Of a DNA stretch of 64,000 bases, positions 23,454 through 55,584 are shown in pieces. Position 1 is the first letter of the stretch; every line of letters begins with the position of its first letter. The stretch is from contig JAFGQN010000043.1 of the NCBI GenBank assembly GCA_016935665.1, forward strand, positions 1-64,000. The letters run 5' to 3'. Origin of the DNA: Deltaproteobacteria bacterium (GTDB lineage: Bacteria > Myxococcota_A > Polyangia > JAAYKL01). The translations under genes were made by a program, and so were the position numbers. The notes beneath the pieces were generated by a model that worked only from the letters and a program-made list of their open reading frames with translations, made no database searches and was not told where the DNA came from.

Positions 23454-24698
23454 TCACTCACCACGACCAAGATACGTCATCAGCCATTCGAGTGCGGGTC
23501 TGGGTGTGCCGTTCTCTCTCTGCAGATATGCGTCCGCGAAATCAAGCGTTCCCGTAGACCACATATTGCCCTCAAGGTACCCCCAAAATGTAATACCGCG
23601 TATGGCCGGATTTTCATACAGCGCGGGAAACAGTCTTTGCATGGCTTTGAGCTGCTCGTTGTCATCTGCATATCTCAGATTGAATGCAGTGATGTATATA
23701 GGGAGTTTGAAAGGGGTAAAAAAACCAATATTCCGTTCGAGCTGTTCTCTTGAAAGTCCAGTGAGATCGTGACCGGCACAACCAATCCCGTCAATCAATC
23801 CCTCCTCCACCAGCGGAATTATCCAGCCCATGTAGTTGGTGGTGTCCCAGGTCAGAGCATTGTACTCGTCCACCAGCAATTTCTTTCCCGGACACAATTT
23901 CCGTGCCTCCGTGTAGACATTAATCAACCAGTCATATCCAGTCACTCCTGCCCCCCCCAATGCCGCACTGACCGCTGGCGGATCGTGAAATGGCGCTTTG
24001 GCTACAACTATTCGATTCACATCCGGATACCGTGTACAAAACTCCCCAATCCACTCGTACACTTCGTCGACCTGCTCCTCCGGGGTAAGCTCAGCCAACC
24101 AGGTGGGCTGTTCTTTTATCCAGAGCAGCGTGTGCGCAATGACGGTCACATTGTGGGCAGATGCTTCTGAGTACACTTTATCAAGGGTATCCCATGTCAT
24201 CACATCCTGTTCCATCTCCACATTTCCCCACAGGCCAGCATTTTCCGGAGAAACCTGATTCCACAGCGTAAAAAAATTCGAATCAAAATCCGCTTCCTTG
24301 ACGCTGCACCCCACCCACTTTCCAACGGGTCCAGAATCCGTATCCTCCACATCGGCTTCCGTTCCTTTTTCCATGCCGGTATCTGTGTCTTCCGGGGCAC
24401 AGGATTCAGTGCACACACTTGAATCCACAGCTGTTCCCGAGCCGGTTTCCGTCCCATGCAACAGCGTATCAGTATCCGAATCCATACCACTGTCGACTGT
24501 CGAAGGCGTATCAGAATCCCGCACTACAAGAGCATCATCGCTTTGTATCGTTTTGTCATCTGAGTCAGCGATGCCCGGCGCACCCTGCTCGACGGGGCCA
24601 TCGAGGGGTTCCAAATCAACGGCAAAACAGCCACTGAGACACTGAAGACTTGCCCATACCAACCAGACGATATTCACGCGAATTCCCGATATATCCAT
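23454..24698 (-). CDS. Tethered lipoprotein with GH10 xylanase-like domain lacking both catalytic Glu
   Basis: A 414-aa lipoprotein (lipobox LSGC, Cys24), then about 120 residues of Asp/Thr/Ser/Glu tether, then a GH10-like domain (about 148-410). Family landmarks are kept: VSPENAGLW, HTLLW with TWL, HDPP, LVDEYNALT, GIGCAGHDLTG, and GITFWGYLEGNMW. The acid/base site, normally VVNEP, reads VVAKAP, and the nucleophile site, normally ITE(L/F)D, reads ITAFN. Both expected glutamates are Ala in the DNA (GCG and GCA). It is therefore probably a xylan- or glycan-binding pseudoenzyme on the cell surface rather than a xylanase. Start: first ATG, weak ribosome-binding site. Confidence 0.85.
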   Translation of the reverse strand: MDISGIRVNIVWLVWASLQCLSGCFAVDLEPLDGPVEQGAPGIADSDDKTIQSDDALVVRDSDTPSTVDSGMDSDTDTLLHGTETGSGTAVDSSVCTESCAPEDTDTGMEKGTEADVEDTDSGPVGKWVGCSVKEADFDSNFFTLWNQVSPENAGLWGNVEMEQDVMTWDTLDKVYSEASAHNVTVIAHTLLWIKEQPTWLAELTPEEQVDEVYEWIGEFCTRYPDVNRIVVAKAPFHDPPAVSAALGGAGVTGYDWLINVYTEARKLCPGKKLLVDEYNALTWDTTNYMGWIIPLVEEGLIDGIGCAGHDLTGLSREQLERNIGFFTPFKLPIYITAFNLRYADDNEQLKAMQRLFPALYENPAIRGITFWGYLEGNMWSTGTLDFADAYLQRENGTPRPALEWLMTYLGRGE

Positions 24699-25133: not shown

Positions 25134-25988
25134 ATGAAAAAATTCGCTCATCTATCCATGGTTCCGGCTCTTATTCTGGGTGCCGCGCTAATGGCAGCTG
25201 GCTGTCAGGATGATTCCAAAGGAAAAGGAAATCCCAACGACACGGATACGGACAGTACATTGATTAATGACACCAGCAACCTGAATCTGGATTCCAGCAG
25301 CAGTGTCATTGATTCCGCCAGTGACACCCTCACTCTGGGAACGGACAGCACGATAATCACGGATACGGCCATTATACCGAGCACCGACAGTACATTGGAC
25401 ACGGTCTCTGTGATCGATTCCGCGACAACCGGCGACACGGCTACTCCCGACACTGCCGGCACGGCAGATACCAATGGGCAAGGGCCATGTGCGTATGAAT
25501 GTCTGCCCCACTGCCGTTCCTGGAGTGGGACACAACATGATGGCGCATGTGAGGGCGATTTACGATGCTGTGAGGGCGCCACCATTCCAGATACAAACGA
25601 TACCGGTAATGACGATACTGCCACCGAAGATACCGAAACCGAAGATACCGAAACCGCCGACTCCGAAGAACCGGCCGCCTGTGAGTTTGACTGTGTGAGC
25701 AAAGCAAGATGTGATGAGGAATTCAGAGTGGAAGGCGAATGCGAAAGAGGCTTCCAGGTCTGCTGCAACGAAGACGCGGACCCGGACACTGCGGATACTG
25801 AGGACACTGAGGACACCGAGGACACTGAGGATACCGAAGATACCGAAGACGACACCGAAGATACAGATACTGAAGACACTGAAACAGAATGCCCCTACTT
25901 CTGCGTCGACGCGTCTCAATGCCCCACCGACGACACCTACGCCAACCTCACCTGCTCTCTCTCCGGCACCGTCTGCTGCCACCTGTGA
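25134..25988 (+). CDS. Tethered lipoprotein with three six-cysteine modules
   Basis: A 284-aa lipoprotein (lipobox AAGC, Cys24) with an Asp/Thr/Ser tether of about 90 residues. It then has three short modules with the same cysteine plan, C-x3-C-x(3-6)-C, a gap, one C, a short gap and a CC pair: CAYECLPHC...CCEG, CEFDCVSKARC...CCNE and CPYFCVDASQC...CCHL. The modules are joined by Glu/Asp/Thr-repeat linkers. The plan resembles clip-like disulfide modules, but I cannot name the family. It is probably displayed at the cell surface with three disulfides per module. GAGGAAGG precedes the ATG. Confidence 0.8.
   Translation: MKKFAHLSMVPALILGAALMAAGCQDDSKGKGNPNDTDTDSTLINDTSNLNLDSSSSVIDSASDTLTLGTDSTIITDTAIIPSTDSTLDTVSVIDSATTGDTATPDTAGTADTNGQGPCAYECLPHCRSWSGTQHDGACEGDLRCCEGATIPDTNDTGNDDTATEDTETEDTETADSEEPAACEFDCVSKARCDEEFRVEGECERGFQVCCNEDADPDTADTEDTEDTEDTEDTEDTEDDTEDTDTEDTETECPYFCVDASQCPTDDTYANLTCSLSGTVCCHL
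25797..25888 (+). repeat. 9-bp coding repeat (Glu-Asp-Thr) in a lipoprotein linker
   Basis: About ten imperfect copies of the 9-bp unit GAGGACACT (with C/T and G/A changes) encode the EDT linker between cysteine modules two and three of the lipoprotein at 25134-25988. Such an array can change length by slippage without breaking the frame, since the unit is a multiple of three. Confidence 0.75.
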
Positions 25989-49707: not shown

Positions 49708-49840
49708 ATTTGGGGTATACATTACAAACATCGCCAGATCATCTTCCCATCACACCGATTTGGGCTTTTCTCGCATATCCGGTGGCCCTGAAACCAATGC
49801 GAGAACTCTTGAAAACAATGCCCAAAGACACAAAAACATA

Positions 49841-50030
49841 TGCGAGAACACGCGGTACCCGTGCGAGAAGCGATGTACGCCCTGCGAGAAGCGATGTACG
49901 CCCTGCGAGAAGCGATGTACGCCCTGCGAGAAGCGATGTACGCCCGTGCGAGAAGCGATGTACGCCCTGCGAGAAGCGATGTACGCCCTGCGAGAAGTCA
50001 CAAAAACGCTGCAAGAAGCTATAAATACGC
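49841..50030. repeat. 21-bp tandem repeat (minisatellite)
   Basis: Seven near-perfect copies of TGCGAGAAGCGATGTACGCCC start at 49862, 49883, 49904, 49925, 49947, 49968 and 49989. Degenerate copies lie at each end (49841 and about 50009), and CACAAAAAC flanks the array on both sides. One spacing is 22 bp (an extra G), which breaks the frame inside the array. Every frame stays open on both strands, giving repeats such as REAMYAL, CEKRCTP and ARSDVRP. It is not a CRISPR array, as there are no unique spacers. Confidence 0.88.
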
Positions 50031-50451
50031 TGATGCTGTCCAATTGGCGATATCAGAGTCGGCATCTGAATCCGCGTCGGCATCGGCATCACCGGCACCC
50101 GTCGCGCCATCGGATGCCTTAAGGGACGAATCACTTTTACAGGGCCGTCACCATTTGGCACAGATCGCGAGAAAAACGATTCGTTGCCGAATAGTAATGA
50201 AAAAAAAAATGCAGATTACCTCTTCCTTCCTTTCGTGGTCCCTATCCTCTCACGCAACGTCAATGCCATGGAAGTCGGCATTTTTTTCAATGAAATCGGA
50301 CAGCTATCGCATGCGGCCGCCGAAAGTGCCCGTTAAGCTGTTGTGCCCGCCTGTGTCAAACGCAAAAAGTGAAGCGTCATCCCAACGCAATTCCGCTTTG
50401 TTTTTGGGCGTGCGTTCGGGTATTGTGAAGGATGCAACAAAGGAGATAAAA
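50031..50451. other. Gene-free stretch with a possible decayed exported peptide
   Basis: No intact gene is supported. One trace is worth noting: an ATG at 50197 followed by a run of ten A; if one A is added, the frame reads MKKK, a hydrophobic stretch (LFLPFVVPIL) and then MEVGIFFNEIGQLSHAAAESAR up to a stop at 50334-50336. This would look like a short exported product with a homopolymer frameshift. It may also be chance. Confidence 0.3.
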
Positions 50452-51549
50452 ATGAATTTAACGCGTATTTTTCTGGTAGCCTCGTTGATGATGTATCTGA
50501 CCGGGTGTGGCGATTCAAGTACGAATTCGGCGGATACAGATACCCATTCGGATTCAAATACGAATGCCGATTCCGAAACAGATTCCACCATCGGTGCGGA
50601 CAGCAGTTCAGATTCTGTGAACAACAACGGGTCCGATACAGATGCCGATAGCAGTACGGCCAATATCGACACCACCGCAACGGACAGCGATTCGCAACAG
50701 GCTGGGGATACCGGAGGGGACACCACTGTGGGCACTGAAACAGAATCTGTTGCAGATACACAAAGCGATACCAATACAGATTCGAATTCAGACACGGGTT
50801 CAGATACAGGGGACACCGCTACCGATGCCGCCACTGTCCGTTTGCCACCGGCCAATGCGCCCTGGGATTACCAGATTGGCGGCGGGTATACGCCACCTTC
50901 AGGAGTACAGGTTGTCAGTCGCGACCGGGAGGACTCGCCGGCGCCGGGACTTTACAATATTTGCTACGTGAACGGGTTTCAGATTCAGCCCCATGAGGAA
51001 AACTGGTGGAAAACAAATCACCCGGATTTGATTTTACGGGACAGCAACGGCGACCCGGTGGTTGATGAGGATTGGGACGAGATGCTGCTGGACGTGCGCA
51101 CCGAACAAAAAAGAGAGGCCCTGGCCGTTATTGTTGGCGGTTGGATAGCGCAATGCGCCACGGATGGATTTGACGCGGTGGAAATCGACAATCTGGACAG
51201 CTGTGACCGCTCGAATGGCCTCATCGACTCCAATGACAACATCGCCTTTATGGGAATGCTGTCCGACATCGCCCACGCCAACGGACTGGCGTCGTCGCAA
51301 AAAAACGCGGCCGCGTTCCTAAATGACATCGACAAAATGAAAACCGACTTTGCCGTTGTTGAGGAGTGCAATCGCTGGAACGAATGCGGCGATTTTCAGG
51401 ATGCATATGGAGATTTGCTCTTTATTGTGGAATACCGAACCCAGGATTTCGATAAAGGCTGCAGTGCCTTTCCCGAGCTTTCCATTGTGCTGCGCAACCT
51501 GGACGTCAGCACACCGTCCAGCGGCAACTATGTGTATGACGGCTGCTGA
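50452..51549 (+). CDS. Tethered lipoprotein with GH114 (endo-alpha-1,4-polygalactosaminidase-like) domain
   Basis: A 365-aa lipoprotein (lipobox TGC, about residue 18), an Asp/Thr/Ser/Asn tether of about 110 residues, then a GH114 domain (about 135-365). Landmarks: WDYQIGGGY at the domain start, GLYNICYVNGF, GFDAVEIDNLDS with the likely catalytic Asp, and VVEECNRWNECGDF with the likely catalytic Glu; both are intact. The family cleaves alpha-1,4-galactosamine polymers such as those of biofilms and fungal walls. The ATG at 50452 has AAAGGAG upstream; the frame stays open back to 49840 through the tandem repeat, but that is not part of the gene. Confidence 0.87.
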   Translation: MNLTRIFLVASLMMYLTGCGDSSTNSADTDTHSDSNTNADSETDSTIGADSSSDSVNNNGSDTDADSSTANIDTTATDSDSQQAGDTGGDTTVGTETESVADTQSDTNTDSNSDTGSDTGDTATDAATVRLPPANAPWDYQIGGGYTPPSGVQVVSRDREDSPAPGLYNICYVNGFQIQPHEENWWKTNHPDLILRDSNGDPVVDEDWDEMLLDVRTEQKREALAVIVGGWIAQCATDGFDAVEIDNLDSCDRSNGLIDSNDNIAFMGMLSDIAHANGLASSQKNAAAFLNDIDKMKTDFAVVEECNRWNECGDFQDAYGDLLFIVEYRTQDFDKGCSAFPELSIVLRNLDVSTPSSGNYVYDGC

Positions 51550-52577: not shown

Positions 52578-54863
52578 TTACGGCGCGGGTGTGGTTGCCA
52601 TGTCGTAGCCCAGCTGGGGTATCTGGTAATAGCCCATGGACTGTGCGGAAACGCCGGCGCGGTAAAACGGGTCCTGCATCAGCCAGATGCGACGCGTATC
52701 CGCTTCGATGTTACTCGAATAGATGAGTATCCGTCCGCGATCAGCGGCGATGATTTCCTCGCGAAAATCGCCAACCACATCGGCAATCGCCAGCAGCCGC
52801 ACATAATCCACGTCGTCACCGACGATGTCATCCGGTAAAGTGAGCACTGGAAATTGCTCATTTGTGTCGGGATCCCCTGGCTGATAAAAAGCAGTCGACG
52901 GCTCGCCTGACAATGGATCCAGTAGTTCGCGCTGAGGATCGCCATCCCAGTAGGCAGCAAATGGACTCAACATGTCAAAGAAAGATTCTTCCAACAGTAC
53001 GTCGCCCATGCTGTCAAACAGCCAGTAACCCGAGAGGTCGGCTTCGCCGCTGTAGCACTCGGTGCCTGGCGTATGCGCATACATGTCGGCACACAACCCC
53101 TGCTTGTGGATATGCGACGTTTTCCAGTCATTTATCCACAGCACACTGCCCGTGGCGGCGTCGACCATACCCATGCCACCGGCGTCATGTCCGCGTTCAC
53201 TGCCGTAGTAGATTTCGAGCCCGGGGTGGTTGGGGTCCAGGTCGCCCAGATACACGTGGTCCAGGTCGCCACGCCCGAGCGTCCACAGTACCGATCCATC
53301 GTCATCAAGCACCATTGCGCCCAGCACCACTTCCTCTTTGCCATCGCCATCGACGTCGCCGGCGCGCAGCGAATGCGCCCCCTGCCCCCAGTAGCGGTGC
53401 AGCTCTCGATAGTGGGCGTCGTACTCTGCAAAGCCATCTTCGCCGGGCTCAACCTTCTCAAGCAGGAAGGGATCTTCGTTTTCGTAGTACCAGGCCAGGG
53501 TGAGCCGTCCATTGGCGTATCGATACGCGGCAACCTTGTGCTTGCCGTATGTGCCGCGCGATACAATCACATGAGGCGTCTTGCCATCCAGGTGCGCGAT
53601 GGCCAATTGATTGCGCGAGTACCGGTTGTAGTCGGAGTATTCGCGCTCCTCCGCGGGTGTGCCTGGCGGGTCAGGTACGCGATATCCCGTTCGATCGGGC
53701 CAATCCGCCTCTGCCAGGATGGTTGTGCCGTCGAGGCCATCGACGATGCGCAGATACTCGGGACCGTTGACCACACGGCCGGTATCATCACGAAGCGCTT
53801 CCTTGCTCAACGAATCGTCGCCCGCCTTGACAATCAGTTCCGCGCGGCCATCCTGGTCGAGGTCGTGGATTAAATATGGCGCATACCACATTCCGGTTTC
53901 GATGGACCACCCCATGTCGTACGTCCACAGCGCCTGACCCTTGTCGTCGAACGCACTTACCTTGTAGGTTTCGTCCACCAGATACCAGTTACTCGTGGCA
54001 GGGTCGACAGTTACCGTTGAGTACCGAAACGCGTAGTCCAGCCGTCCGTTACCCTGAAGGTCTCCAAACGCCGGCCAGCGCGCATGTCCGCCACGGCCAC
54101 CTGTTATAAGCGCCAACACCGGTATTGCGTCAGAAATCGATTTCCATGCCGGCGCAGAGTTCGGTTGTTCCACGCCGTGTATGACCGCGCGCACGTAAAA
54201 CGTCTGATCGAGTGTGGCGCCTTCGGCAACGAAGTTGGTGCGCCCCGCCAATGGTTCGGTCGTCAGGCGTACAGGCGACGCGTCACCCGTCACCGAATAC
54301 ACATGAAACGCAATGGACACGTCGTCGTCGGCCTGCAGCCGCCAGCTTAAAAACACTCCGCGGTCATGGGGCAGCGCAACCAGCGCGCGATCGAGCGAAG
54401 GCTGCCACGGCGTTGCAGGACCGATTGGCGTGGATATGAACTCACACGGTTGTCCAGGCTGCCGGCATATGAAACCATCTTCAACCGCATCGCACAGTGC
54501 CGAACAGCCATCGGAAGATGTGGTGTTGCCGTCATCGCAGACCTCAGACGCTTCAACGACGCCATTGCCACATCCCGATGGTTCGATTCCCAGCGAGTCA
54601 GTACCAACATTGGGGATTGTCGCCGTATCTGTATCAATCCGGGAATCCGACGATGGAGACAGGGTATCCGGCGCCATTGAAGACGTGCCAGAATCCGTTG
54701 AAATTGAAACCGACGTGTCACCATAAATGGAATCGGTTGAAACGGGGATAACAGACGTTGAGTCCAAACCTTTGTGGTCCAAAGAAGCATTCGAAGAGCA
54801 GCCAGTACCATTTGTAAACACCAGCAACGCAATACCTGTTAGAACGATAATTTGAGGAATCAA
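52578..54863 (-). CDS. Tethered lipoprotein, rhamnogalacturonan lyase (PL11 family)
   Basis: A 761-aa lipoprotein (lipobox GTGC), then an Asp/Thr/Ser tether, then a myxobacterial cysteine-rich repeat (CGNGVVEASEVCDDGN ... CSALCDAVEDGFIC; about 97-140), and then a PL11 rhamnogalacturonan lyase domain (about 165-760) with calcium-type DxDxDG loops (HDLDQDGRAE, GDVDGDGKEEVV) and the family's ARWPAFGDLQGNGRLDY and SHIHKQGLCADMY. It cleaves rhamnogalacturonan I of pectin by beta-elimination. It starts at TTG (54863): AGGAGG lies seven bases before it, and upstream in-frame codons lack a ribosome-binding site. Confidence 0.9.
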   Translation of the reverse strand: MIPQIIVLTGIALLVFTNGTGCSSNASLDHKGLDSTSVIPVSTDSIYGDTSVSISTDSGTSSMAPDTLSPSSDSRIDTDTATIPNVGTDSLGIEPSGCGNGVVEASEVCDDGNTTSSDGCSALCDAVEDGFICRQPGQPCEFISTPIGPATPWQPSLDRALVALPHDRGVFLSWRLQADDDVSIAFHVYSVTGDASPVRLTTEPLAGRTNFVAEGATLDQTFYVRAVIHGVEQPNSAPAWKSISDAIPVLALITGGRGGHARWPAFGDLQGNGRLDYAFRYSTVTVDPATSNWYLVDETYKVSAFDDKGQALWTYDMGWSIETGMWYAPYLIHDLDQDGRAELIVKAGDDSLSKEALRDDTGRVVNGPEYLRIVDGLDGTTILAEADWPDRTGYRVPDPPGTPAEEREYSDYNRYSRNQLAIAHLDGKTPHVIVSRGTYGKHKVAAYRYANGRLTLAWYYENEDPFLLEKVEPGEDGFAEYDAHYRELHRYWGQGAHSLRAGDVDGDGKEEVVLGAMVLDDDGSVLWTLGRGDLDHVYLGDLDPNHPGLEIYYGSERGHDAGGMGMVDAATGSVLWINDWKTSHIHKQGLCADMYAHTPGTECYSGEADLSGYWLFDSMGDVLLEESFFDMLSPFAAYWDGDPQRELLDPLSGEPSTAFYQPGDPDTNEQFPVLTLPDDIVGDDVDYVRLLAIADVVGDFREEIIAADRGRILIYSSNIEADTRRIWLMQDPFYRAGVSAQSMGYYQIPQLGYDMATTPAP

Positions 54864-55584
54864 AAAAACACCTCCTGAAATATGGACACAAATGTGTGTC
54901 TCTGTATGTGGCACAACGCGCCAGCCAACAATTTTTTCTCTGCCGAATCACATGTACGGCGACTCAATCGCGGTGGCTATTGCAAAAGACGTGACAATAT
55001 TATTACAAAAATACAATGTTTCCAAAATCGATTTACCCCCCCTTGAACCTTACACACGATTCGACGCACCCAAATACCGCAGAACGACGTTTCTTTTTCA
55101 CCATTCGCAAATGAAATATCACAATGCAGGAATGAAACGCACCTGGCATGAATGAAGTTGTCAACGCCGAAGGCGCCCTCGTCTGGCTCTTTCCCGATGG
55201 TGTTCAGCGAACACCGATTAGCTTTATTCACCGCAGGGACTGAATGCTGCACCAGCGCGATACTCTACTGCGCTGCCTGCGATACGATACATCCACCTAT
55301 CCGTGTGAGATCTCTCGATGCAGTAACGGGTGCGACGCACTTCTGTCTCGCTCCCCTCGGGTATCCATGACCCCGCACCATGTTCGGGCAGTGCAAAGGA
55401 AAGTTCTTCCAGGGCTTCATCGGGCGACGTGTCCCTATCGTTTGATAAAACCAATTTACAATGGCAGGATTTGGCTTTTGCATGATGTTGTCATTCATCA
55501 TTTGATGTGCACACCGCACATCCACTTTCGAAACCAAATCCGGCGCAACGTCACGGTTCATTGGGCTTACCCTGGAAGGGGGGG
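54864..55584. other. Gene-poor region upstream of the pectin lyase gene
   Basis: Several short overlapping frames occur on both strands but none is convincing. One plus-strand frame at 55148-55246 encodes about 32 residues (start MNEVVNAEGALVWLFPDGVQ), which might be a fragment, but it matches nothing I recognise. The region must carry the promoter of the PL11 gene. It has the look of relic DNA near other broken genes. Confidence 0.35.

Follow-up and report, generated by a model that had tools for sequence, protein, structure and literature searches.

A GH10 domain within the anti-sigma factor RsgI6 of Clostridium thermocellum binds xylan and cellulose, has very low activity and is described as adapted to binding (PMC4711584). 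Control of genes for carbohydrate-active enzymes by ECF sigma and anti-sigma factors is known in other phyla (PMC10766802). We found no natural GH10 protein without both catalytic glutamates in the open-access literature, nor did we find there any lipoprotein with a carbohydrate-binding module (CBM) that is linked to an ECF/FecR pair. The stretch of DNA analyzed here (the window, 64,000 nucleotides) comes from an uncultured lineage of Polyangia (Myxococcota), the class to which the cellulose degrader Sorangium belongs. Its source genome (G000) comprises 8.16 Mb in 249 contigs and contains sixteen GH10 matches, some of which are fragments.

One gene of the window (23454-24698, reverse strand, as are all features of this gene given below) encodes a protein of 414 amino acids and was identified from its uninterrupted reading frame, a Pfam match and alignment with a relative of solved structure. 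Reading the sequence by eye, we found a signal peptide (residues 1-23, 24630-24698) that ends in the lipobox LSG/C, with the lipid-acceptor cysteine at residue 24; lipoprotein signals are also present in the two closest relatives described below. Cys24 opens the motif CFAVDLEPLDG (24597-24629), which is followed by a linker rich in serine, threonine and aspartate (residues 35-123, 24330-24596) with counterparts in the relatives, and then by the GH10 (beta/alpha)8 domain (residues 124-412, 23463-24329). GH10 (PF00331) is the sole Pfam family in the protein at E<=1 (E=1.1e-35, 123.8 bits against a cut-off of 22.1), and no anti-sigma domain of the RsgI type was found at that threshold. The best relative of solved structure is XacXynB of Xanthomonas (PDB 4pn2, 4pmx and 4pmy; E=1e-53). 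An AlphaFold2 model of the domain built from a 29-row alignment has a pLDDT of 91.4 and a pTM of 0.90, and superposes on XacXynB (4pmy) with a Z of 37.7 and an rmsd of 2.1 A over 285 residues (Foldseek TM 0.89). A sequence-only reading of this stretch had described a lipoprotein with a structurally preserved GH10 domain, and both the family match and the model agree with it.

The same reading had proposed that the acid/base and nucleophile glutamates are both replaced by alanine. In the pairwise alignment with XacXynB, AKAP stands opposite VNEP and ITAFN opposite ITEFD, and in the multiple alignments the two alanines likewise fall on the two catalytic glutamate columns. The acid/base position is taken by Ala235 (codon GCG, 23994-23996), which is preceded by Lys234 in place of the conserved asparagine (Lys234-Ala235, 23994-23999), whereas the nucleophile position is taken by Ala338 (codon GCA, 23685-23687). 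It had further been claimed that the loss was confined to these two residues with hardly any other change, which does not hold, as at least five more residues of the catalytic centre are changed. These are Asn234 to Lys, Gln308 to Ala (23775-23777), Asn277 to Asp and Asp278 to Glu (Asp277-Glu278, 23865-23870) and Asp340 to Asn (23679-23681, two residues past the nucleophile). The motifs Asn-Glu, NDY, Q-x-H and E-x-D of active enzymes consequently read Lys-Ala, Asp-Glu-Tyr, Ala-x-His and Ala-x-Asn in the window protein.

Residues retained in the alignment are Glu152, Asn153, His189 and Trp193 (the sugar-platform stretch His189 to Trp193, 24120-24134), Tyr279, Asn280, His310 and the platform aromatics Trp372 (23583-23585) and Trp380 (23559-23561), most of which we take to line the sugar subsites of GH10 proteins. 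Two changes were observed in the binding platform, namely Lys156 to Leu and a glutamate at position 196 where the relatives have glutamine, and because of these the affinity for sugar may be low or the specificity different. From the loss of both glutamates together with their supporting network we strongly infer that the protein no longer hydrolyses xylan. The best reading of the gene product from its sequence is a lipid-anchored GH10 pseudoenzyme with a predicted intact fold and a lost catalytic centre.

The double change was also found in related genomes, where the sequence-only reading had suggested looking for it. Two proteins stand closest to the window protein: L011, encoded on another contig (C182) of the same genome, and L018 of a sister species (G001), each with 48% identity over the matched part. 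The acid/base and nucleophile positions carry Ala and Ala in the window protein, Ala and Gln in L011, and Met and Gly in L018. The three proteins form a clade confined to one Polyangia genus, with two copies in G000 and one in G001; its support is 100/100, and the SH-aLRT value is still 100 after removal of the catalytic columns. As a full-length profile was swamped by the low-complexity linkers, a profile of the GH10 domain only was used for searching. Against 318 genomes of the class it gave 550-562 bits to the three clade members and no more than 314 to any other sequence, and a scan of the whole phylum with the same profile returned no additional member. A plasmid search gave only distant matches at 22-25% identity, most of them carrying a xylanase annotation.

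Of the 109 GH10 domains aligned, 103 have both glutamates, three have one of them substituted and three, namely the clade members, have neither. A second alignment of 96 rows drew on loci of many phyla, and there both glutamates are present in every row outside the clade. A sequencing or alignment artefact is ruled out by the open frame and by the double loss common to the relatives. A natural GH10 protein without the entire catalytic centre is apparently rare, with no other among about 190 aligned. Partial degeneration was observed elsewhere: a second degenerate GH10 in the source genome (L006, contig C130) has the acid/base motif VVKDAI (Asn to Lys, Glu to Asp) and has lost the histidine of HxLxW while keeping the nucleophile, and two other Polyangia GH10 proteins, L127 (G067, C92) and L125 (G227, C636), carry Glu to Gln at the nucleophile and Glu to Asp at the acid/base position, respectively.

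L011 and L018 are orthologous, and the synteny around them is conserved. Both are transcribed divergently from a cassette that encodes an ECF sigma factor, FecR with a TPR-like stretch and a third protein; after these come genes which we recognize from their sequences as presumably RimO and NadC. Other homologous ECF/FecR cassettes of the family are often accompanied by a divergent lipoprotein with the motif C-x4-[LI]-x-P-h-[GD] directly past the lipid cysteine, and the window protein carries this motif as well (CFAVDLEPLD). Besides the window protein, seven motif lipoproteins were found, all beside ECF/FecR, in G000 (contigs C29 and C182), G001, G002 (two), G004 and G005; a motif lipoprotein is present at seven of the 17 listed ECF loci of this kind. 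One of those in G002, a third species of the genus, lies at an orthologous ECF locus (L172, 3-332, on contig C245), where the contig ends within the linker. When the whole source genome was scanned for the motif in DNA form, 25 matches were found against 16 for a reversed control, and only three of the 25 translated matches are true lipoproteins, these being the window protein, L011 and the ECF-linked gene on C29. Among 107 surveyed GH10 reading frames other than that of the window, some of them truncated, only L011 and L018 have the motif.

The domains behind the motif vary and include the dead GH10, DUF4215 repeats, a weakly matching thioredoxin-like stretch and a domain without a Pfam match. 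The last of these is modelled as a jelly roll (pLDDT 91), for which Foldseek alone gave weak matches and VIA-align gave CBM11 of C. thermocellum at Z 13.5; CBM30, CBM29, CBM15 and CBM22 were found lower in the matches, together with a relative that is not a CBM, NDUFAF1, at Z 13.1. This CBM11-like fold is found at the lipoprotein position of two ECF/FecR loci (L171 and L175). As the jelly-roll model matches CBM11, the dead GH10 of L011 and L018 occupies, on this modelling, the place of a CBM-like fold in other cassettes. The third cassette gene (L066, 11353-12444, about 364 amino acids) is conserved across the family and has no Pfam match; its C-terminal half resembles an outer-membrane barrel (ending in VVDVHF) and could be a trans-membrane link. 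Three related ECF loci (L171, L173 and L174) adjoin genes for a GH5 cellulase, a polysaccharide deacetylase, a pectinesterase and a GDSL esterase with CBM6.

The surroundings of the window gene are of a different kind. On one side it is flanked by an AI-2E family transporter and on the other by a divergent cysteine-rich lipoprotein, beyond which lie NudC and a TonB-like protein; the flanking genes include neither an ECF/FecR pair nor any xylan-degradation cluster. The AI-2E orthologue in the sister species G001 is 82% identical and has no adjoining GH10 gene, so the window copy is lineage-specific at its present position. The divergent lipoprotein (25134-25988, forward strand), which shares one intergenic region with the dead GH10 gene, has linkers of aspartate and threonine and three cysteine-rich repeats (C-x3-C ... 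CC) and belongs to no Pfam family. Far from the GH10 gene, the window also encodes a GH114 protein (49840-51549) and a rhamnogalacturonan lyase of family 11 (52578-54914).

The function that had been suggested for the protein is that of a tethered, surface-displayed xylan lectin that binds without cutting. The loss of cutting stands as stated above, but with the relatives tied to ECF/FecR signalling, the role of a sensor or receptor is no less fitting than that of a plain lectin. A plain lectin would capture xylan at the cell surface for the active xylanases of the same cell, with no part in signalling, and the long linker of the lipoprotein, the kept sugar platform and the richness of the genome in GH10 genes are all in keeping with such a role. 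It is at odds with the position of both sister proteins and of all other motif lipoproteins found, which adjoin ECF/FecR, and with the location of the window gene outside a xylan-degradation cluster. Overall we regard a plain lectin as unlikely, although capture remains a live rival for the window copy in particular, because that copy is distant from any ECF/FecR cassette.

The distribution of the losses in the clade was compared with conservation in 94 catalytically intact relatives. The columns of Asn234, Asn277, Asp278 and Asp340 are at least 95% conserved in these relatives and that of Gln308 is 88% conserved, and all are lost in the clade. At the 95% level, the three clade proteins have all lost the conserved residue in five of six catalytic columns, compared with one of 32 other columns, with a Fisher p of 7e-5 that is only indicative, as the catalytic set was drawn from textbook knowledge of GH10 after the conservation table had been viewed. 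The single lost non-catalytic column is that of Asp278, which adjoins the centre, and 88 of 96 non-catalytic conserved cells are kept. By these alignments the losses cluster in the catalytic centre, with the fold and the greater part of the sugar platform kept. Catalysis could in principle have been relocated, with Asp277 and Glu278 serving as new carboxylates in a hydrolase or transglycosidase of altered mechanism, since each of the three clade proteins has acidic residues at the end of beta-5 (Glu-Glu in both sisters), where active enzymes have Asn-Asp. However, the nucleophile and its His-Asp partners as well as the acid/base residue and its asparagine are degraded, and differently so in the three proteins, a pattern unlike that of a conserved new active site, which makes relocation improbable.

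Among the clade members the GH10 domain has a dN of 0.39-0.49 with saturated dS, whereas neighbouring genes have a dS of 1.6-3.1. The open frames and this moderate dN against saturated dS show purifying selection on the frame and fold of the clade, which has nevertheless diverged more quickly than the genes around it (48-54% identity compared with 61-83% for neighbouring genes of the same two genomes). This faster evolution might be expected of a paralogue decaying towards a pseudogene under relaxed selection after duplication, which we consider the least likely account, given three intact frames in two species, the conserved synteny of the L011/L018 pair, the excess of synonymous change and the retention of non-catalytic conserved cells.

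We favour, with moderate confidence, a lipid-anchored glycan-recognition module that probably derives from an ECF/FecR sensor, the window copy being a detached paralogue. We count for recognition or sensing the double loss by different substitutions, its focus on the centre, the kept fold, purifying selection, the well-supported clade, the ECF/FecR synteny, the motif, the CBM11-like domain at the corresponding place in other loci and the precedent of RsgI6; against this reading we count the missing ECF/FecR neighbour of the window gene, the changed binding residues and the incomplete occurrence of motif lipoproteins at the ECF loci. With the minus-subsite residues retained, the barrel would hold a chain of xylan or xylo-oligosaccharide; such binding of xylan, like display on the cell surface, is a weaker prediction than the loss of activity. 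The ancestral role of the clade may have been glycan recognition feeding an ECF/FecR pathway, in which the lipoprotein would bind the glycan, FecR would relay the signal and the sigma factor would be released, the GH10 barrel presumably doing the job of the CBM11-like domain in sister loci. This signalling role is likewise a weaker suggestion, drawn from the neighbouring genes and one short motif. The window copy would have been duplicated and relocated with its post-lipobox motif retained, and might work together with a FecR protein encoded far away or simply capture glycans.

A broader and more tentative proposal, which we hold somewhat short of probable, is that Polyangia have a modular form of trans-envelope glycan sensing made up of an ECF sigma factor, FecR, the third protein and a lipoprotein with the fixed motif, in which a dead GH10 may replace a CBM sensor. 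We found no direct evidence on substrate sensing in Polyangia in the open-access literature, and the ECF/FecR link, if true, would show how these bacteria may sense substrates. A clade with member-specific losses and most of the sugar platform kept also offers a natural experiment in the passage from enzyme to binding module.

Compared with known systems, the window protein shares with XacXynB a common barrel (Z 37.7, with 36% identity over the 285 aligned residues), an equally short N-terminus and most of the sugar-platform residues. XacXynB has both catalytic glutamates and the conserved residues around them, whereas the window protein has neither glutamate and is a linker-tethered lipoprotein. 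The XynA E182A/E280A mutant (7d89) is likewise a GH10 barrel inactivated by a double Glu to Ala change (Z 32.2), but it was made in the laboratory, while the window protein is natural and has at least five accompanying changes. The CBM11-like lipoproteins L171 and L175 resemble the sister proteins in their position relative to ECF/FecR and in the post-lipobox motif, and differ in having a jelly roll where the sister proteins have a GH10 barrel. The nearest precedent is RsgI6, in which a GH10 domain serves polysaccharide recognition in sigma/anti-sigma regulation (PMC4711584). That domain is fused to the anti-sigma factor of a SigI/RsgI system, whereas the window protein is a separate lipoprotein that has lost both glutamates and whose sisters are partnered with ECF/FecR.
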